In this document: in pieces, positions 1 to 7,970 of the stretch
How positions within the stretch are numbered: the stretch's first letter is position 1
Layout of the letters: each line of letters opens with the position of its first letter
Assembly (NCBI GenBank): GCA_030043835.1
Contig: JASHWY010000183.1
Coordinates: 1 to 10,428, forward strand
Origin: Thermoplasmata archaeon
GTDB lineage: Archaea; Thermoplasmatota; Thermoplasmata; Lutacidiplasmatales; UBA184
Direction of reading: 5' to 3'
DNA: 10,428 nucleotides
Position numbers and translations under genes: made by a program
Notes under the pieces: generated by a model
Databases searched by the model: none
Told to the model about the DNA's origin: nothing
The model's input: only the letters and a program-made list of their open reading frames with translations

Positions 1-3000
1 GCGGCGTCATGGCGGCCCTCGACAAGAACTTCCCGACCCTCGACTGCAGCATCTGCATCGAGGCCCCGAAGCTGAGCGAGGTCGCCGAGAACGGGAACGT
101 CGAGATCCTCACCGACGCCGAGGTCGTCGGACTCGAGAAGAAAGGAGAGGGTTACGAGGTCACGATCCGACAGCGAGGGAACCTCGTCAGCAACGAGTGC
201 ACCCGGTGCGACCTGTGCGTGCAGGCCTGCCCGGTCGTCCTTCCGAACGCCTTCGACCAAGGCCTCGCTTCGAGGAAGGCGATCTACACTCCCTTCCCCC
301 AGGCAGTTCCCGGCCCCTACTTTCTGGACACCGAGAAGTGCGTCAACCAATACCCCATCCTCCTGACGTGCACGCGGTGCTACGACGCCTGCGGGCCGAA
401 GGCGATCAACTTCGACCGCCCGCTCGACGTCCAGCTCCGGCGAGAGGTCTCGTCCATCATCGTGTCCGCCGGCTTCGAACCGGTCGACCCGGCGGTGCTC
501 CCCGAGTATGGCTATGGGACGCACCCCGACATTCTCACGTCGCTCGAGCTCGAGCGGCTCCTCTCCTCGGCCGGCCCGAGCGGTGGGGAGATCGTCTGCC
601 CCTCGGACGGAAGGCACGCCAAACGCATCGTCTTCGTGCTCTGCGCCGGCTCTCGCGACGTGCGGAACATCCCGCAGTGCTCCCGTTTCTGCTGCATGTA
701 CTCGATCAAGGAAGCCGTGCAGGTCCGCGACCACGGCGTCGAGGATGTGACGATAGCGTACCTGGACCTTCGTAGCTACGGTAAGGGGTTCGACGCCTTT
801 TGCCAGCGCGCCAAGGACCAGGGAGTGCACTTCCTCCGAGGGCGGCCCTCCCGCGTCCGGCACGACGGGAACGAGCTCAAGGTTCGAGTGGCCGACAGTG
901 CCACCGGCGAGGTCAAGGAGATCGGAACGGACCTCGTGGTCCTCGCGACGGGCGCGAGCCCCCCGCGGGCCCTCTCGGACCTCGCGAAGGTCCTGAACGT
1001 GAAGACCGGTGTCGACGGCTTCATGACCGAGGAAGGAGCTCCGGAAGGCATCTACGTGGCCGGCAGCGCTTCCGGCCCCAAGGACATTCCGGACAGCGTC
1101 GTCGAAGGGGGCGCGGCCGCCGCGAAGTCGCTCGAGCGGGTGAAGTACCGCTTCTGGGCCCAGCCGGAGGTGGGAGAACCGCTCCCGGCGGACGGCGAAG
1201 CTCGGGTGGGGGTCTTCGTCTGCGACTGCGGGAGCAACATCGCCGGGACCGTGAACGTGCCTCAGGTCGCGCGATATGCCGGTTCGCTGCCCCACGTCGC
1301 CCACGCTGAAGAGGTCCGCTTCGCGTGCGCCGCCAACACCCAGGCGGACATGGCGAAGAAGATCGTCGACCTGAAACTCAACCGCCTCGTCGTCCCCGCA
1401 TGCTCGCCGAAGACCCACGAGGGGACCTTCAAGCGGGTCTGCCTGCGCGCGGGTCTCAACCCGTATCTCCTCGAGATGGCCAACGTCCGGAACATGGACT
1501 CGTGGGTCCACAAGAACGAACCGGACCAGGCCACGGTGAAGGCCCAAGACCTGGTTCGGATGGCCGTCGAGAAGGCCGTGCGCCTTAAGCCCCTGGTCCC
1601 TTTCGAGCAGCACGTCGTCCGTGCTGCGCTCGTGGTCGGAGCGGGGCCGGCCGGGATGGTCGCGGCGTCGAACCTCGCACGGCAGGGGTACGAGGTCCAT
1701 CTCGTCGAGAAGCGCGAGCGGCTCGGCGGAGCCCTCCGCTTCATGTCGCACGTCGACCCGTACGGGCTCGAGGCCCCGGCGCTGCTCGACGCGATGGTCC
1801 GCGAGGTCGAGCACTCCGGGGTGCGGGTGCACCTCTCCTCCGAGGTGGTCCAGGTCGACGGCCACGTGGGGGAGTTCCGGGCCCACCTTTCCACGGGGGA
1901 GGTCATCGACGCCGGGGCAATCCTTCTCGCGACCGGGGGCCGGACTTCGACCCAGGCGGTCACCCAGGGCCCGCTCGCGAGCGCGCAGAGCCCCCTCACC
2001 ATCACCAACGAGCGGCTCCACGAGATGATCCGGGAAGGCAACGTGCCCCAAGAGCGGGTCACGCTCGTGAGCTGCGTCGGTTCTCGGAACGGCCAGCTCG
2101 AGTGCTCCCGGTACTGTTGTGGGGCGATGGTCGGTCAGGCGCTCCGCCTTCGGCGCATGGGAAAGAAAGTCCGGGTGCTCTTCCGGGACATGCGCACGTT
2201 CGCCCGCGGGGCCGAGGACCTCTACCGCGAGGCGGCCGAAGCGGGGGTCGCCTTCTTCCGATACCCCGACGCGACGCCCGAGAGCGTCCTCCGTCTCCAC
2301 GACGGGAGTGTGATTTTCCGGGACGAGCTCCTCGGCCGGGACGTCGAGCTGCCGACCGACCTCCTCGTCCTCATGAGCGCGATCGAGCCCGCGGACGAGA
2401 ACGTCTCGAAGATGCTCAAGGTGGCGAGGGATTCCGCGGGCTTCCTTCTCGAGCGCCACCCGAAGCTCGGCCCGGTCGAGGCGGCGAGCGCAGGGATCTA
2501 CCTCTGCGGTAGCGCGCAGGCGCCGAAGGATGTCCGGGAGTCGATCGCCCAGGGACTGGCGGCGGCGACCAAGGCGAGCGGTCTCCTATCGCACGAGAAG
2601 ATCGAAAAGGAACCGCTGGTCGTTCAGATCGACCTTGAGAAGTGCAACGGTTGCGGCCGCTGCGTTCCTGTCTGCCCGTATCGGGCGATCGAGCCGGTCG
2701 TCTTAGACGGGAAGAAGAAGGTCCAAGTGGTCAGCGCGGCCTGCATGGGCTGCGGAACCTGCGGGGCGGACTGCTACCGGGACGCCATCACGAGCCCGGG
2801 GTTCACGGACGAGCAGATCCTCGCCCAAGTCGACGCCGCCCTCGCTGAGGACCCCGAGCACAAGGTGCTCGTTTTCGCGTGCAACTGGTGTAGCTACGCC
2901 GGGGCCGACCAAGCAGGGATCGAGAAGATCCAGTACCCGGCGGTGCCGCGCACCATCCGGACGATGTGTTCCGGTCGCGTCTCGGAAGATTTCATCAAAC

Positions 3001-3290
3001 GCGCGTTCGAAAAGGGCGCGGGGGCCGTGCTGCTCACCGGCTGTCATCCGGGAGACTGCCACTACATCAACGCCAACACGTCGACGGAGAAGAGATTCCG
3101 CATTTGGAGCAAGATGTTCGAGCGCAAGGGGATCGCTCCGGATCGCTTCCAACTAGAGTGGATCTCCGCGGCCGAGGGAAAGGAATTCGCCCGGAAGATT
3201 CGTGAGATGGCGGAGGTCATCGACCGGTACAACGCGACTCGAGCGGTAGGGAAGTCGTCGTCGGCGGTGGAGGCCGTCGCGGCGAAGTGA
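1..3290 (+). CDS. HdrA-HdrA-MvhD fusion flavo-iron-sulfur protein (5' partial)
   Basis: Catalytic scaffold of a heterodisulfide-reductase-type electron-transfer complex, probably cytoplasmic. The frame is open from position 3. The ATG at position 9 lies inside a conserved HdrA stretch (GVMAALDKNFPTLDC), so the true start is outside the window and I infer 200 or more residues are missing. Numbering from that Met: module 1 (to about 385) has ferredoxin cysteines C64/C67/C70/C74 and C111/C121/C124/C128, the HdrA cysteine set C212/C224/C228/C229, and the ATG and GPKDIPDS flavoprotein motifs. Module 2 (about 399-865) restarts with the HdrA N-terminal VGVFVCDCG, has a FAD Rossmann loop GAGPAG at 544-549 and a second cysteine set C689/C699/C703/C704, but no ferredoxin insertion. 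A two-cluster ferredoxin follows (C879/882/885/889 and C912/915/918/922), then an MvhD domain (about 952-1065; C958, C961, C987, C1012, C1017). MvhD normally carries a [2Fe-2S] cluster linking HdrA to a hydrogenase or dehydrogenase. It is the first visible gene of the Hdr-Etf operon. Confidence 0.93.
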   Translation, partial: GVMAALDKNFPTLDCSICIEAPKLSEVAENGNVEILTDAEVVGLEKKGEGYEVTIRQRGNLVSNECTRCDLCVQACPVVLPNAFDQGLASRKAIYTPFPQAVPGPYFLDTEKCVNQYPILLTCTRCYDACGPKAINFDRPLDVQLRREVSSIIVSAGFEPVDPAVLPEYGYGTHPDILTSLELERLLSSAGPSGGEIVCPSDGRHAKRIVFVLCAGSRDVRNIPQCSRFCCMYSIKEAVQVRDHGVEDVTIAYLDLRSYGKGFDAFCQRAKDQGVHFLRGRPSRVRHDGNELKVRVADSATGEVKEIGTDLVVLATGASPPRALSDLAKVLNVKTGVDGFMTEEGAPEGIYVAGSASGPKDIPDSVVEGGAAAAKSLERVKYRFWAQPEVGEPLPADGEARVGVFVCDCGSNIAGTVNVPQVARYAGSLPHVAHAEEVRFACAANTQADMAKKIVDLKLNRLVVPACSPKTHEGTFKRVCLRAGLNPYLLEMANVRNMDSWVHKNEPDQATVKAQDLVRMAVEKAVRLKPLVPFEQHVVRAALVVGAGPAGMVAASNLARQGYEVHLVEKRERLGGALRFMSHVDPYGLEAPALLDAMVREVEHSGVRVHLSSEVVQVDGHVGEFRAHLSTGEVIDAGAILLATGGRTSTQAVTQGPLASAQSPLTITNERLHEMIREGNVPQERVTLVSCVGSRNGQLECSRYCCGAMVGQALRLRRMGKKVRVLFRDMRTFARGAEDLYREAAEAGVAFFRYPDATPESVLRLHDGSVIFRDELLGRDVELPTDLLVLMSAIEPADENVSKMLKVARDSAGFLLERHPKLGPVEAASAGIYLCGSAQAPKDVRESIAQGLAAATKASGLLSHEKIEKEPLVVQIDLEKCNGCGRCVPVCPYRAIEPVVLDGKKKVQVVSAACMGCGTCGADCYRDAITSPGFTDEQILAQVDAALAEDPEHKVLVFACNWCSYAGADQAGIEKIQYPAVPRTIRTMCSGRVSEDFIKRAFEKGAGAVLLTGCHPGDCHYINANTSTEKRFRIWSKMFERKGIAPDRFQLEWISAAEGKEFARKIREMAEVIDRYNATRAVGKSSSAVEAVAAK

Positions 3291-3296
3291 GAGGAG
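3291..3296 (+). promoter_or_regulatory. Shine-Dalgarno site of the HdrD-like gene
   Basis: GAGGAG lies 4 nt upstream of the ATG at 3301, in the 10-nt gap after the stop of the HdrA fusion gene. It supports that start codon and shows that purine-rich ribosome-binding sites are used for internal operon genes here. The spacing is slightly short. Confidence 0.55.
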
Positions 3297-3300
3297 CGGT

Positions 3301-4425
3301 ATGGTAGAGGAGTCCAAGAGCTCGGTCCCGATCCGCTTCGACGACGAAGCGTGGGAGGCCCTGGCCGCCACGACCAACGCCAATCGGTGTTTCCAGTGCG
3401 GCACGTGCACCGCGGCGTGTCCTCTCGCCGACAGCACCCCGATGAGGGTGCGCGCCCTCATCCGCCGGGCACAGTTCGGCGAGACCGACCCGCTCATCTG
3501 GAAGTGCATGACGTGCGCGGAGTGTAACGCGTCGTGCCCCCGCGGGGTGGACATCGTTGGCCTCGTGCGACACCTGCGCCAAGAGAAGTGGCGGACGAGG
3601 GAGGTTCCGAAGGGTCTTCCGACGCTCCTCTGGGGAATCTACTCGGATGGGAACACGTTCCACCTGCCTCCCAAGGACCGGGCGGCGTGGATGAAGGACG
3701 TGAAGGTTCCCGGTCGAGGGTCGACCCTCCTCTACGTGGGCTGCACGGCTTCCTACGACCCCCGGGCCCAGCGCACCGCGCGCTCGGTGGCGAAGCTCCT
3801 CAATCTCGCCGGAGTGGAATTCCAGGTCATGGGCACGGACGAGGTGTGCTGCGGAGAGGCCGCGAGGTCGGTCGGAAACGTGGGGCTCTACGACGACCTC
3901 CAGCAACGGAACTCTGATGCCTTCCGTAAGCGCGGCGTCGAGCGGGTGATCACGATCTCACCTCACTCCTTCGACGCCCTGAAAGTCGGTCAGTCGAAGT
4001 ACGGCGGCCCCCAGGTCGTCCACTACACCCAAGCGCTCGAGGAGCTGGTGGACAGCGGGAAGGTCGTTGGCACGGTGGAGAAACGCACGGTCACGTACCA
4101 TGACCCCTGCTATCTCGGTCGCCACCAAGGCGTCTTTGAGCCACCCCGCCGGCTCCTGGAGCTCTCCGGCCTTACGCTGGTCGAGATGGCGAACAATCGC
4201 GCCCAATCGCTCTGCTGCGGCGGGGGCGGCGGGCGGATGTGGATGGAAACCGACCCCTTGGAGCGACCGGGATCCCGTCGCGTGAGCGAAGCGGCGGGCA
4301 CGGGGGCGGACCTCCTGGCCACGGCGTGTCCCTACTGCATCAGCGTTTTCGAGTCCGAGCGGGGATCGGAGGTGATTCCCGTGACCGACGTCGCCGAGCT
4401 CGTCGCCTCCGGAGCCAAGGGCTGA
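3301..4425 (+). CDS. HdrD-like (HdrC-HdrB fused) iron-sulfur oxidoreductase subunit
   Basis: Soluble 374-residue protein built like HdrD, GlpC and GlcF. An N-terminal HdrC-type ferredoxin has two [4Fe-4S] motifs (C30/33/36/40 and C69/72/75/79). Two HdrB-type CCG domains follow, of the kind that hold non-cubane clusters in HdrB. The C-terminal CCG domain is complete: C270, C305-C306, C343 and C346. The N-terminal one has C148 and C183-C184, but its usual closing CxxC reads S220-P-H-S223, so two ligands are replaced by serine. No membrane helix is visible, unlike ETF:menaquinone oxidoreductases that fuse a similar module to a cytochrome b-like anchor. It lies between the HdrA fusion and EtfA, with a 3-nt gap to EtfA. 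I infer that it passes electrons between EtfAB and HdrA. A true heterodisulfide substrate is possible but not shown; the exact substrate is unknown. Confidence 0.9.
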   Translation: MVEESKSSVPIRFDDEAWEALAATTNANRCFQCGTCTAACPLADSTPMRVRALIRRAQFGETDPLIWKCMTCAECNASCPRGVDIVGLVRHLRQEKWRTREVPKGLPTLLWGIYSDGNTFHLPPKDRAAWMKDVKVPGRGSTLLYVGCTASYDPRAQRTARSVAKLLNLAGVEFQVMGTDEVCCGEAARSVGNVGLYDDLQQRNSDAFRKRGVERVITISPHSFDALKVGQSKYGGPQVVHYTQALEELVDSGKVVGTVEKRTVTYHDPCYLGRHQGVFEPPRRLLELSGLTLVEMANNRAQSLCCGGGGGRMWMETDPLERPGSRRVSEAAGTGADLLATACPYCISVFESERGSEVIPVTDVAELVASGAKG

Positions 4426-4428
4426 CCG

Positions 4429-5406
4429 ATGATCGACGTTCGGGAGGGCGGTATCTGGGTGTACGCCGAGCGGCGGGGGGATTCGTTCCTCCCCGTGAGC
4501 CTCGAACTCATGGGCAAGGCCCGGGAGATCGCGGACCGGCTGGGTGTCGAGCTGACGGCGTTGACGGTCGGCCGCGACGGGGGAGCCGGTGCGCAGCTGC
4601 GGCGATACGGCCCTGACCACGTTCTCGAACTCGCGCATCCGCTGCTTACGACCTACGACGCGAAGGCCTACGCGACCGCCATCAGTGCGGAGCTGCGCAG
4701 GTCAAAGCCCTCGACCCTCCTCCTCGGAGCGACGCGGAACGGCCAGGACCTCGCCGGTCGGTTGGCGATCCGGATGCGTACCGGCCTTACCGCCCACGTC
4801 ACCGCACTCGAGCTGGACGATCGGCAGAACCTCATCGGCTGGGTCCCCGGATTCGGCGGGGGGATCGAGGCGGGGGTCTCCTGCCCGGTCCGTCGGCCCC
4901 AGATGGTGACGGTCAAGCCGGGGGTCTTCCCGTTGCCCGAGAGCGGGACGCCGACCGGAGACGTCACGAAGGTGGTGCCCGAGCTCTCGGAGAAGGACGT
5001 CGGGTCCCGCCGGATCTCGTTCGAGCCGAAAGGTTCGACGGTCGACTTAACCCGGGCGGGCGTGATCGTCGTGGGCGGACGGGGGACCGGAGGGGACTTC
5101 ACCCGGATCGAGAGGCTGGCGCACCTCCTCGGAGGGGAGGTCGGCGCGACGCGCGTCGCCACCGATGCCGGCTGGGTGGAGCGCGACCGGATGATCGGCC
5201 AGACCGGGGTCATCACGCATCCGGAGTTGGCCCTCGTGTTCGGCGCGAGCGGAGCGGTCCAGTTCACCGTGGGCATCGAAGGCGCGAACACGGTGATCGC
5301 CGTCAACCGGGATCCCGCGGCCCCCATCTTCGACCACGCGGACCTCGGTATCGTGGGCGACCTCGGCCCGGTCGTCGACTCCCTTCTCCGAGCCCTGGCG
5401 GCCTGA
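4429..5406 (+). CDS. etfA: Electron transfer flavoprotein, alpha subunit
   Basis: Alpha subunit of the EtfAB heterodimer, which binds FAD and shuttles electrons between acyl-CoA-type dehydrogenases (or NADH in bifurcating types) and an acceptor. The length (325 aa) is normal for the family. The N-terminal half is the ETF alpha/beta fold, ending around RRPQM (156-159) and VKPGVF. The C-terminal FAD domain (about 208-325) shows VVGGRGTG, R242 in GATRVATDAGW (the conserved flavin-neighbouring arginine), GQTG (257-260), GASGAVQF (272-279), AVNRDPAAPIF and the terminal GIVGD. The residue after Q278, normally His, is Phe279. The ATG at 4429 lies 3 nt after the HdrD-like stop; I see no strong Shine-Dalgarno close to it, so translational coupling is likely. 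It is followed 2 nt later by etfB. This alpha-then-beta order directly behind Hdr genes argues for an Hdr-linked ETF. Confidence 0.94.
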   Translation: MIDVREGGIWVYAERRGDSFLPVSLELMGKAREIADRLGVELTALTVGRDGGAGAQLRRYGPDHVLELAHPLLTTYDAKAYATAISAELRRSKPSTLLLGATRNGQDLAGRLAIRMRTGLTAHVTALELDDRQNLIGWVPGFGGGIEAGVSCPVRRPQMVTVKPGVFPLPESGTPTGDVTKVVPELSEKDVGSRRISFEPKGSTVDLTRAGVIVVGGRGTGGDFTRIERLAHLLGGEVGATRVATDAGWVERDRMIGQTGVITHPELALVFGASGAVQFTVGIEGANTVIAVNRDPAAPIFDHADLGIVGDLGPVVDSLLRALAA

Positions 5407-5408
5407 CG

Positions 5409-6206
5409 ATGCGGATCGTCGTGTGTATGAAGGTCGTCCCTCGCCCGGAGGAGGTCAAGGTCAACCTCGAGACCAAGACGCTCGACCGTGCTGGCGCGCG
5501 GTCGGTCCTCAACTCGGCGGACATGAACGCCCTCGAGACCGCGCTCGCCTTCCGCGATGCCCACGGGGGCACGGTCGCGGTCCTCTCGATGGGGCCTCCC
5601 CAGTTCGAACCGTACCTCCGCGTCGCCCTCGCGGTCGGAGCGGACGAGGCGATCCTCTTGAGCGACCGGGCATTCGGCGGGGCGGACACTCTCGCCACGT
5701 CGTATACGTTGGCGACCGCCCTCCCGAAGATCGGAGGCGCCGACCTGGTCGTCTGCGGGGAGGAGTCCTCGGACGGGGGAACGAGCCAGGTGCCTCCTAG
5801 CATCGCCGAGTGGTTGGACGCGTCACAGGCCACCTACGTAGAGCGAATCGTCGCGGGGAAGGACGGAACCACGGTGTTGGCGACCCGGGCGCTCGAGGAT
5901 GGGAAGGAAACCGTCGAACTCGTCCTCCCGGCCGTGATCTCGGTCGTCGTCGGCTCGAACGAACCCCGTTTCATCGACTACGACCGTTGGGCGTTTGCCC
6001 AGAGCGCGAAGGTGAAGGTCCTGGACTTTGCGGCCCTGGGCGGCGATCCCCAGTACCTGGGCCTCCAAGGCTCGCCGACGAGGGTGGCGGGGTTGCGCGA
6101 GGTCCGAAAACCCGGGCGACGCCGCGAGCTCGTCACCGTCACGGCCGACGAAGCGGCGTTTCGGATCAAGGCCGAGATCGAGCGGGTCGGACGGGTTCGG
6201 AGCTAG
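5409..6206 (+). CDS. etfB: Electron transfer flavoprotein, beta subunit (bifurcating-type features)
   Basis: Beta subunit of EtfAB, 265 aa, a usual length. It starts with the typical MRIVVCMKVVPRPEEVKV. Residues 58-62 (VLSMG) and 85-101 (SDRAFGGADTLATSYTL) match the block that in characterised bifurcating EtfB proteins helps bind the second FAD; non-bifurcating EtfB proteins hold AMP there. The nucleotide loop reads D122-GGTSQVPP, where bifurcating relatives usually have DGDTAQVGP, so Pro129 replaces a Gly. NEPRF (184-188) and GLQGSPTRV (218-226), which form the recognition and C-terminal region, are also conserved. The C-terminal tail is rich in Lys, Arg and Glu. It is the last gene of the operon: 153 nt without a gene follow. 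FAD rather than AMP in the beta subunit, and therefore bifurcation, is an inference from motifs. Confidence 0.94.
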   Translation: MRIVVCMKVVPRPEEVKVNLETKTLDRAGARSVLNSADMNALETALAFRDAHGGTVAVLSMGPPQFEPYLRVALAVGADEAILLSDRAFGGADTLATSYTLATALPKIGGADLVVCGEESSDGGTSQVPPSIAEWLDASQATYVERIVAGKDGTTVLATRALEDGKETVELVLPAVISVVVGSNEPRFIDYDRWAFAQSAKVKVLDFAALGGDPQYLGLQGSPTRVAGLREVRKPGRRRELVTVTADEAAFRIKAEIERVGRVRS

Positions 6207-6331: not shown

Positions 6332-6371
6332 AGCCGGAAGCGCTCAAGAAAACGAACGAGTGGGGAAGGCG

Positions 6372-6932
6372 ATGGCGAACGGGCCAACCGTGGCCCAGAT
6401 CATGACGCGGCTCGTGATGACGACCTCGCCGGACGCGAGCTTGGACCAAGCCGCCCGTCTCCTTAGGGAGTGTCACATTTCCGGTCTGCCCGTCGTCGAC
6501 CTTAAGGACCGGGTGATCGGAGTGCTCAGCGAGAAAGACATCGTTCGGGTGCTTCACGAGGCCACCGGGGTAGGTCACCCGCGGGGTCTCCTGGATGTCC
6601 TCCTCGAGTCCGAGACCGCGAAGGGAGAGAACGTCCTGACGATCTGTCGGCGTCGACTTCGGAACACCCGGGTGAGGGAAGCGATGTCCCAACCCGTGGT
6701 ATCCGTGAAGCCGGATACTTCCCTCATCGCGGCGGCCCGTCTCATGAAGATGAAGGGAGTGAACCGTCTTCCGGTGCTGGGTCCTCGGCAGCGTCTCGTA
6801 GGAATTGTTTCGAGATGCGACATCGTCGGGGACCTTTCGGCGACGACCTTGAGGGCCCGCGGCTCGCTGCATCCCGGCCCGCTCAAGGTGGGACCCGGCG
6901 TAAGAAGGTCCGACTCGTACTTGGATGCCTAA
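6372..6932 (+). CDS. CBS-pair domain protein
   Basis: Stand-alone tandem CBS (Bateman) protein of 186 aa. CBS pairs normally bind adenine nucleotides such as AMP, ATP or SAM and act as energy or ligand sensors. CBS1 spans about 8-62 (VAQIMTRL, HISGLPVVD, GVLSEKDIV) and CBS2 about 100-156 (VREAMSQPVVSV, GVNRLPVLG, GIVSRCDIV). The two GxxSxxD motifs, G50-D56 and G144-D150, are the usual nucleotide-contact segments. A linker of about 40 residues separates the repeats, and a short basic tail follows. There is no fused enzyme, DNA-binding or transport domain, so the target is unknown. I chose the ATG at 6372 because the purine-rich GGGGAAGG precedes it. An in-frame GTG at 6360 would add four residues (MGKA), and I cannot exclude it. 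Confidence 0.85.
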   Translation: MANGPTVAQIMTRLVMTTSPDASLDQAARLLRECHISGLPVVDLKDRVIGVLSEKDIVRVLHEATGVGHPRGLLDVLLESETAKGENVLTICRRRLRNTRVREAMSQPVVSVKPDTSLIAAARLMKMKGVNRLPVLGPRQRLVGIVSRCDIVGDLSATTLRARGSLHPGPLKVGPGVRRSDSYLDA

Positions 6933-7031: not shown

Positions 7032-7970
7032 TCACGAGAAGGAGGAGGCCCGCGTCACCGCTGAGGGTTGGCCGTTCAAGGCATCGGAGCTCGCGAGCGC
7101 GACAGAGGAAGAGGAGCTGCAGGTAACCCCCGTGAGGGTCTGGTAGAATCGGACGTTGCCGGTCGTTGCATTGACGGTCGCATTGAACGCGGTCCCGGTC
7201 CCGGCCGCGGACTTGCCGAGGGTGCAGGTGGAGTACTTGACCGACCACTCGGCGCCGACGGTACCGAGGAACGAGAATCCTCCGATGATCGCAAACTCGG
7301 CGGTCGCGTTCGGGTTCGCGGCAAGGAAAGCGCCGGCGTAGGGCGCCACCGCCGCAGCCGCCGCATCGCTATCGATCACGCCTGCGGGTATGGAGAGGAA
7401 AAGGCCGAAGATGGTCTGGCAGGTCCCCGAAATGGTCGCGACGACCGTGCCTTTGCCGTCATCGACTAGCACGACCGAGACCGCACCCGCTCCGTTTCGG
7501 TAAAGAAACTCCCAGAAAGGCGCGACCCCAGCGCCCCGGCTCCCAGTGTACGCCGGTACCGTCACGTTGGCCGAGAGACCGGGGGCCGGTGTCACCGTGC
7601 AGTTGCTCGTTCCGGAGCCACTGAAGTTGAGCGGGGCCGTGTACGCGGACGCCGAATCCAACCCGATGGCGGCGAGCGCTGCCCAGCCCCCACTCCCGTA
7701 GCCAGAGACCGACTGATCGGCCACCGGTCGGGCTTGGGAGTAGGTCTGCGGGCCCCCGCTATCGCTCGAGCTCCCAAGGCTCGGCAAGACCAAGACTACG
7801 AGCAACAGGACGACGACGATGGCGGCGCCGATCCCGAGGAAGACCAGCAACCGGTTCCGTCGGGGAGGGGAAAGCGGGGCAACGACCGGAGCGGTCGGAG
7901 AAGACCCCTCCACGCCAGGAGGCACGACACCCTGCGCCGACACATCGTCGGATAGGGGGCCCCTCGGCAC
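7032..7970 (-). CDS. Membrane-anchored extracellular protein, function unknown
   Basis: Not recognised as a known family. The 312-residue protein has a Pro-rich cytoplasmic N-terminus (1-36), a basic stop PRRNR (36-40), one strong hydrophobic segment (41-63) and a Ser/Gly/Ala/Thr-rich domain (64-312) predicted outside the cell. The outside domain has six N-glycosylation sequons (N115, N123, N135, N221, N263, N267) and four cysteines (C124, C184, C249, C284) that could form two disulfides. A Ser-rich tail ends the protein. No lipobox, catalytic motif or S-layer domain was identified. The start is a GTG at 7970, 35 nt beyond a TATA-like element. An in-frame GTG at codon 10 is an alternative and would not change the topology. 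The low-complexity, sequon-rich ectodomain is usual for archaeal surface proteins, but no role can be assigned. Confidence 0.72.
   Translation of the reverse strand: MPRGPLSDDVSAQGVVPPGVEGSSPTAPVVAPLSPPRRNRLLVFLGIGAAIVVVLLLVVLVLPSLGSSSDSGGPQTYSQARPVADQSVSGYGSGGWAALAAIGLDSASAYTAPLNFSGSGTSNCTVTPAPGLSANVTVPAYTGSRGAGVAPFWEFLYRNGAGAVSVVLVDDGKGTVVATISGTCQTIFGLFLSIPAGVIDSDAAAAAVAPYAGAFLAANPNATAEFAIIGGFSFLGTVGAEWSVKYSTCTLGKSAAGTGTAFNATVNATTGNVRFYQTLTGVTCSSSSSVALASSDALNGQPSAVTRASSFS

Follow-up and report, generated by a model that had tools for sequence, protein, structure and literature searches.

Genes and features of the locus

The window analysed here (the whole stretch of DNA, contig C130, 10,428 bases) belongs to the metagenome-assembled genome (MAG) G000 of a Thermoplasmata archaeon, which is 62 % complete, and contains between positions 3 and 6206 the 3' half of an eight-gene unit, korDABC-hdrAA'-hdrD-etfA-etfB, coding for a 2-oxoacid:ferredoxin oxidoreductase (Kor), proteins related to heterodisulfide reductase (Hdr) and an electron-transferring flavoprotein (ETF). 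A first-pass annotation, made from the sequence alone, had proposed four open reading frames (ORFs) on the forward strand (3–3290, 3301–4425, 4429–5406 and 5409–6206), separated by 10, 3 and 2 bases, to encode an HdrA-HdrA-ferredoxin-MvhD fusion, an HdrD-like protein, EtfA and EtfB; ORFs and gaps were recovered, and domain matches agree with the assigned contents. For the first gene, the domain make-up holds but completeness does not, since the contig edge cuts hdrA and its start is absent from the window.

3..3290, forward strand: hdrAA', HdrA-HdrA-ferredoxin-MvhD fusion; 5' end (about 41 residues) lost at the contig edge
3..1190, forward strand: HdrA half 1, flavin adenine dinucleotide (FAD; thioredoxin-reductase-like) domain with inserted ferredoxin, aligned to 5odc_A residues 180–561
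1206..2600, forward strand: HdrA half 2, N-terminal domain and FAD domain, without inserted ferredoxin and without Cys197 equivalent
2625..2789, forward strand: C-terminal 2x[4Fe-4S] ferredoxin, residues 875–929 (PF14697)
2865..3224, forward strand: MvhD/FlpD domain, residues 955–1074 (PF02662, 149 bits)
3301..4425, forward strand: hdrD-like gene, HdrC-like dicluster ferredoxin with a degenerate first and a complete second CCG domain
4429..5406, forward strand: etfA, Val at the bifurcation-Arg position and Phe at the α-FAD His position
5409..6206, forward strand: etfB, altered β-FAD motif (DGGTSQVPP), recognition loop RFIDYDR specific to the cassette

The missing start of hdrA is located on contig C209, the end of which is identical to the first 64 bases of the window, and a protein database entry of 1136 amino acids (P0180) is 100 % identical across the 1095 residues encoded in the window. 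On C209, the genes are arranged in the order korD-korA-korB-korC and run into the N-terminal part of hdrA, so that the cassette of G000 is spread over two contigs. All four subunits (alpha, beta, gamma and delta) of the 2-oxoacid:ferredoxin oxidoreductase were found there: KorA scores 514 bits against NF006412, the NCBIfam 2-oxoacid alpha model (cut-off 411), and KorB, KorC and KorD match their families with scores below the cut-offs. Three relatives from the phylum Thermoplasmatota, with 34–54 % identity to the four genes of the window, likewise possess genes for a two-[4Fe-4S] ferredoxin and for the alpha, beta and gamma subunits directly upstream. In place of the external hydrogenase or formate dehydrogenase that had been envisaged as redox partner, genes for a 2-oxoacid:ferredoxin oxidoreductase are encountered immediately upstream. 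KorC of the genus of the window displays the motif TQSYGPESRGG(A/S)CEADVVV (L083:182–703, minus strand; L035:3608–4477; L091:6449–6970), and the other cassette KorCs that were matched by pattern have a (T/R)GGWS(R/S/K)AD form instead.

Misbinning of the contig was ruled out by the ABC permease encoded in the window, which shares 62–77 % identity with copies in same-genus genomes, by the cassette and downstream CBS gene (77 %) of G352, and by the overlap with C209; G352 and G317 are the two same-genus genomes with the cassette on one contig. Two observations count in favour of misbinning, namely the patchy distribution of cassette-type HdrD in the genus (4 of 78 genomes) and the absence of the cassette from the three same-genus ABC loci fetched (L084–L086). 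An assembly artefact was ruled out by the identical gene order on a single contig of 1.58 Mb (G401).

Conservation of the gene order

Scanning of genome contigs with an EtfB profile (one genome per species, 84,980 species) yielded 32 loci, 16 of which contain the cassette. All eight genes are present in the same order and on the same strand in 15 of these (including L053, the EtfB of which is cut by the contig end), and the remaining one, L037, is cut at the contig start. In the other 16 loci, the same test detected neither Kor nor HdrA alongside etfB and etfA; L051 has weak HdrD matches elsewhere. Together with G001, G003, G352, G401 and G552, the 15 scan loci amount to 20 genomes besides that of the window which harbour the eight genes on one contig in conserved order and orientation; here, G151 and L044 represent one contig, as do G317 and UBA61/L035 (172,535 bases). 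In L037, L092 and L096, the cassette is cut by a contig end. The search for conserved gene order in relatives, suggested along with the first-pass annotation, therefore succeeded across phyla, and because the order recurs in 20 other genomes, it is more than chance. The host records comprise Thermoplasmata/Thermoplasmatota, Euryarchaeota, Nitrososphaerales, Geocrenenecus, Aigarchaeota, Pelearchaeum, Sulfolobales, an uncultured archaeon, a 'bacterium' and Chloroflexi, i.e., the cassette is mostly archaeal.

Spacing is tight: among 119 junctions in 17 loci, 98 fall within 30 bases, including 51 overlaps of exactly 1 or 4 bases. The remainder consists of three longer gaps, one of them due to a split hdrA, and 18 larger apparent overlaps that result from the longest-ORF choice of start codons. 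The statement that most genes overlap did not survive this recount of exact overlaps. The split of hdrA, after 842 and 843 residues with a second frame following, occurs in L038:4448–6973 (plus strand) and L095:10772–14199 (minus strand), and its nearly identical position points to a genuine split of the gene and not to errors in two assemblies.

The cassette-type HdrD of the four genus genomes has 54–100 % identity, and a fifth match in the genus (G324, 38 % identity) is of a type lacking Kor. Its locus, L093:7497–12795 (plus strand), contains genes for HdrD, EtfB, EtfA, HdrA, ferredoxin and MvhD without KorA, KorB or KorC. No locus with cassette-type HdrD-EtfAB but lacking Kor was seen, save the contig-cut L037, L092 and L096. 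A phylum-wide search detected HdrD relatives in 191 of 292 genomes; gene order was read in 30 loci (that of the window and 29 others), and the 3' order of the cassette was found in three of the 29. Within the class of G375, 46 of 250 genomes have HdrD matches, nine of them with short HdrD frames of at least 348 bits; among these nine, those read were G375 (L041), G401 and G552 (all eight genes) and G410 (cut by a contig end). Because the EtfB and HdrD queries that retrieved the cassette loci came from members of the cassette itself, features shared among these loci are partly expected, and the 16 non-cassette loci represent the only independent ETF controls.

HdrA fusion protein

The two HdrA halves are complementary with respect to the N-terminal domain and Cys197. 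Half 1 retains the inserted ferredoxin and the Cys197 equivalent and is devoid of the N-terminal domain present in half 2. The same complementarity in fusions of anaerobic methanotrophic archaea (ANME) and in MetFV-HdrABC-MvhD of Moorella is read as heterodimer formation in the relevant passage of PMC9012536, where the ANME fusions are described with the halves in the reverse order. The FAD domain of HdrA is present together with its iron-sulfur ligands and the ferredoxin ports. No variation was seen in 18 rows among the cysteines of the two ferredoxins (inserted and C-terminal), of the N-terminal domain, of MvhD and of the two CxGSR...CSRxCC motifs.

An AlphaFold2 model of HdrAA' was built from the 18-row alignment, from which the cut or split copies of L037, L038 and L092 were left out. 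It reached a predicted local distance difference test score (pLDDT) of 78.3 and a predicted template modelling score (pTM) of 0.76, with HdrA chains as best matches; the second half matches HdrA well, and the first, of lower confidence, is barely covered by the comparison. HdrA of methanogens is described in PMC9012536, as far as its account of these ports goes, to exchange electrons with ferredoxin, on the HdrBC side and with MvhD. Given the invariant port cysteines and the match of the model to HdrA, all three ports look functional in the cassette protein as well. The fusion is widespread: 7400 of 7999 candidates (sequence matches only) match at E <= 1e-100, and hosts among the 120 matches listed include Poseidoniia, Chloroflexi, Dehalococcoidia, Armatimonadota and Rokubacteria.

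HdrD-like protein

The HdrD-like protein (374 amino acids) is filled by an N-terminal HdrC-like dicluster ferredoxin followed by a degenerate first and a complete second CCG domain. In the first CCG domain, the closing CxxC starts with Ser in all 21 cassette rows, and L033, L038 and L095 lack the CC pair. With its HdrC-like ferredoxin and one complete CCG domain, the protein provides the equivalent of the HdrBC arm. A maximum-likelihood tree of 48 HdrD-like rows places the 21 cassette rows on one side of a branch with a support of 100/99, the nearest outsiders being L006, L024 and L093. The nearest solved chain is 9ojn_A ('Iron-sulfur-binding reductase', 1042 amino acids), which we take to be an EtfD-type ETF oxidoreductase. 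In the cassette loci read, the genes for this HdrD-type iron-sulfur protein and for EtfAB are adjacent.

EtfA and EtfB

Both subunits match PF01012 (EtfA 119 bits, EtfB 129 bits), and their closest solved relatives are bifurcating ETFs. In EtfA of C. difficile, R136 hydrogen-bonds to N5 of the bifurcating FAD (PMC5691135, in the section on this site), and in Ldh-EtfAB, replacement of EtfA R205 by alanine is reported to abolish (bifurcation) activity (PMC9232219, in the corresponding section). Neither Arg nor Lys occupies this β-FAD N5 position in the cassette, where 21 of 22 rows have Val, the remaining one Thr and all three further genomes again Val, which argues against the ETF-type bifurcating flavin proposed in the first-pass annotation. 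As a marker of the cassette, Val had to be dismissed: the control set, initially 17 rows and reduced to 16 non-cassette bacterial EtfAs by removal of the cassette row L053, comprises 11 Val, 3 Lys (two poorly aligned) and 2 Arg at this position, so that Val marks an ETF subgroup and not the cassette alone. A better marker is the His position of SGAIQH, near the α-FAD, which is Phe in all 25 rows (22 and 3; two rows are one genome) versus 15 His and 1 Tyr in the controls. The 120 nearest EtfA homologues listed, picked by the cassette profile, also have Phe throughout.

In EtfB, the β-FAD motif of the window reads DGGTSQVPP versus DGDTAQVGP, the second Asp and the Gly being changed in the rows read and the equivalents of Asp122, Thr125, Gln127 and Val128 being retained in the window. 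The recognition loop RFxD[FYW]xR occurs in all 18 full-length cassette rows (four cut rows were unscored) and in all five loci of a further set, versus none of the 16 controls. Taken together, the residue losses in EtfA, the altered β-FAD motif and the cassette-specific EtfB loop suggest a dedicated ETF, most likely the partner of the HdrD-like protein, that is probably not a canonical bifurcating one. The other part of the first-pass proposal, the joining of the Hdr and Etf systems, gains support from the short junctions and the gene order kept across phyla, from the single group formed by the cassette HdrD-like proteins and from the cassette specificity of the EtfB docking loop.

Host genomes

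Acyl-CoA dehydrogenases, possible donors of the ETF, are encoded by all 21 hosts, and a relative of the 49-kDa subunit of complex I by 20. Of the 21 hosts, 19 gave a COX1 match, which exceeds the cut-off in 18, a count that has no matched baseline and hence provides context rather than a correlation; no match was obtained in G317 (91 % complete) and G377, and only a weak one in G374. A ferredoxin domain of the ETF-QO/FixX type is present in 13 of 21 (11 over the cut-off). Judged from these gene contents, the hosts appear to be respiring organisms for the most part, well supplied with ETF donors.

Flanking genes

Downstream of the cassette, the window encodes a CBS-domain protein and then a DrrAB-like ABC transporter:

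6360..6932, forward strand: CBS-pair protein, 153 bases 3' of etfB, neighbour of the cassette and candidate member of the system

A CBS-pair gene adjoins etfB in G352 as well (77 % identical), and another one is located upstream of korD in L043. On the minus strand of the window (7032–7970), a 312-amino-acid ORF, in which a hydrophobic stretch and a segment rich in Ser and Gly are found close to the start, possibly codes for a surface protein; Pfam and NCBIfam searches gave no match. Scans of the window with Rfam (gathering threshold) and for tRNAs found nothing.

In eight other loci and L095, a conserved protein of 326–358 amino acids is encoded divergently, about 100–200 bases upstream of korD:

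L038:366–1421, minus strand
L039:552–1538, minus strand
L040:548–1528, minus strand
L041:175–1251, minus strand
L042:487–1473, minus strand
L045:558–1541, minus strand
L047:153–1226, minus strand
L053:438–1505, minus strand
L095:17230–18267, plus strand

The one member searched has no match in Pfam and NCBIfam. By eye, the protein has a winged-helix look, and with its invariant Cys-x2-Cys...Cys segment it is a candidate redox- or iron-sulfur-sensing regulator. In the Chloroflexi cassette, a divergent gene with Fer4_20 and Pyr_redox_2 domains (GltD/NfnB-like; L036:3–1490, minus strand) is situated 76 bases upstream. Directly 3' of the G151 cassette, a Rieske ferredoxin and an EtfB-EtfA fusion are encoded (L034:5899–7946, minus strand), and in G401, genes named by eye as ferredoxin-like, lipoyl-synthase-like and dihydrolipoyl-dehydrogenase-like adjoin the cassette (L094:18143–19901).

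Proposed function and alternative readings

The eight genes belong together and most likely code for one soluble Kor-Hdr-Etf complex. The favoured reading, to which we assign a probability of roughly 0.4, is that of a conserved operon for a single complex built around a three-port HdrA hub, with energetic coupling at HdrA in the oxidative, confurcating direction. The HdrA fusion would fold as an internal heterodimer and serve as the hub. KorAB would oxidize a 2-oxoacid and pass low-potential electrons via KorD to the ferredoxin inserted in HdrA half 1, while the HdrD-like protein would replace HdrBC at the high-potential port and exchange electrons with EtfAB. The middle port would be made up of MvhD and the C-terminal ferredoxin and lead to a carrier encoded outside the cassette. 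Decarboxylation of 2-oxoacids operates at about -500 mV and ETF at about 0 mV; by confurcation, 2-oxoacid electrons and those of reduced ETF would be merged on the HdrA flavin, from which they would depart at middle potential. We infer direction and acceptor of this electron flow, the direction being most likely oxidative and the coupling site HdrA rather than Etf.

Several points weigh against the confurcating complex. The cassette contains no gene for a middle-potential partner, and the potentials of the HdrA flavins are not readable from sequence. Some hosts possess further 2-oxoacid oxidoreductases, with three more KorA-like matches in G000, and clusters for HdrD, Etf, HdrA and MvhD exist without Kor (L093), which is thus not obligatory for Hdr-Etf pairing in general. 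Moreover, most hosts have oxidases and complex I relatives, so that a con- or bifurcating step is not strictly needed.

The main rival, which we consider possible though rather doubtful, is a non-bifurcating conduit from Kor via KorD, HdrA, the HdrD-like protein and EtfAB to the quinone pool, in which the HdrA flavins act as relays only; it would constitute a ferredoxin-free respiratory 2-oxoacid dehydrogenase. COX1 and the ETF-QO/FixX-type domain in most hosts, the loss of the bifurcation Arg from EtfA and the proximity of the HdrD-like protein to 9ojn_A all accord with such a wire, but a two-port wire needs neither MvhD nor the C-terminal ferredoxin, the cysteines of which are invariant, 8 of 21 hosts have no ETF-QO match, and the COX1 count is not set against a baseline. 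The three retained ports are the main reason for preferring coupling at HdrA over a simple wire. Separate but co-regulated enzymes in one operon, with Kor reducing free ferredoxin and Hdr-Etf forming another complex, would fit classical Kor enzymes, which act alone, and the Kor-less cluster in the same genus; they appear unlikely because the eight-gene order is unbroken in 20 genomes across phyla, with mostly short junctions, and because cassette-type HdrD-EtfAB was met without Kor only at contig ends. Least probable is a double-bifurcating machine in which EtfAB itself bifurcates and feeds the HdrA flavins, for even though the closest solved relatives are bifurcating ETFs and four residues of the β-FAD motif persist in the window, the N5 Arg is replaced in every row and the motif has lost its second Asp and its Gly in the rows read.

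In its boldest form, the confurcating reading would define a new class of HdrA machine, a single soluble Kor-Hdr-Etf complex that would confurcate 2-oxoacid and ETF electrons on an HdrA flavin into a middle-potential carrier, in archaea most of which encode oxidases and in some Chloroflexi; we advance this only tentatively. If true, the complex would stand in for free ferredoxin and a 2-oxoacid dehydrogenase complex, and would rely on an ETF no longer possessing a bifurcation site. HdrA complexes have mostly been described in strict anaerobes, where hydrogenase, formate dehydrogenase, F420 or MetFV serve as their partners, so HdrA together with Kor and ETF in mostly heme-copper-oxidase genomes would extend HdrA-based energy coupling to respiring archaea, and may explain how some oxygen-respiring archaea handle electrons of very low potential. 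For archaea lacking pyruvate and 2-oxoglutarate dehydrogenase complexes, as stated for one Angelarchaeales genome in the pertinent part of PMC9038741, the cassette would also provide a path of 2-oxoacid electrons that is open to testing. Since the eight genes co-occur, the complex lends itself to expression and assay as a whole.

Comparison with known systems

With MvhADG-HdrABC and FdhAB-HdrABC of methanogens (5odc, 7bkb), the cassette shares the HdrA FAD hub, the inserted and C-terminal ferredoxins, MvhD, an HdrBC-like arm and, most likely, solubility. In contrast to these complexes, it has two fused HdrA halves, HdrD-like protein and EtfAB in place of HdrBC, and a 2-oxoacid oxidoreductase in place of hydrogenase or formate dehydrogenase. 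Bcd-, Car- and Ldh-EtfAB and EtfABCX are the closest solved relatives of the cassette EtfA and EtfB, which differ from these bifurcating forms by replacement of the N5 Arg and the α-FAD His, the altered β-FAD motif and a distinct docking loop. Phenylglyoxylate dehydrogenase PadEFGHI, named in NCBIfam, is a 2-oxoacid oxidoreductase with its own flavoprotein module. As in PadEFGHI, the oxidoreductase of the cassette is apparently wired to a flavoprotein rather than to free ferredoxin, an arrangement shared by the ANME-1 pyruvate:ferredoxin oxidoreductase-FrhB clusters described in part of PMC9012536; the flavoprotein module is a reductase of NAD or F420 in these systems and HdrAA'-HdrD-Etf in the cassette.

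Pairing of an HdrD-type iron-sulfur protein with EtfAB is also found in HdrF3-EtfBA of Desulfobacterium autotrophicum (PMC2702500) and in EtfD-type reductases (9ojn_A), which are described, in the passages concerned, as membrane-bound and without HdrA or Kor; the window protein has 374 amino acids. A kor-hdr-etf cassette was not found described in the open-access literature searched, a scope that mostly leaves out subscription journals. The fused or tandem HdrA clusters of ANME and MetFV-HdrABC-MvhD of Moorella share with the cassette two HdrA units of complementary N-terminal domain and Cys197, HdrD-like neighbours and swapped input modules; EtfAB is unmentioned in the main text of PMC9012536, and no Kor module was seen in its passages on these clusters. 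HdrA hubs with exchanged partners and HdrD-like neighbours are thus already known from the clusters treated in that paper, and new in the cassette are the input module (Kor) and the high-potential module (HdrD-Etf) on this known hub.

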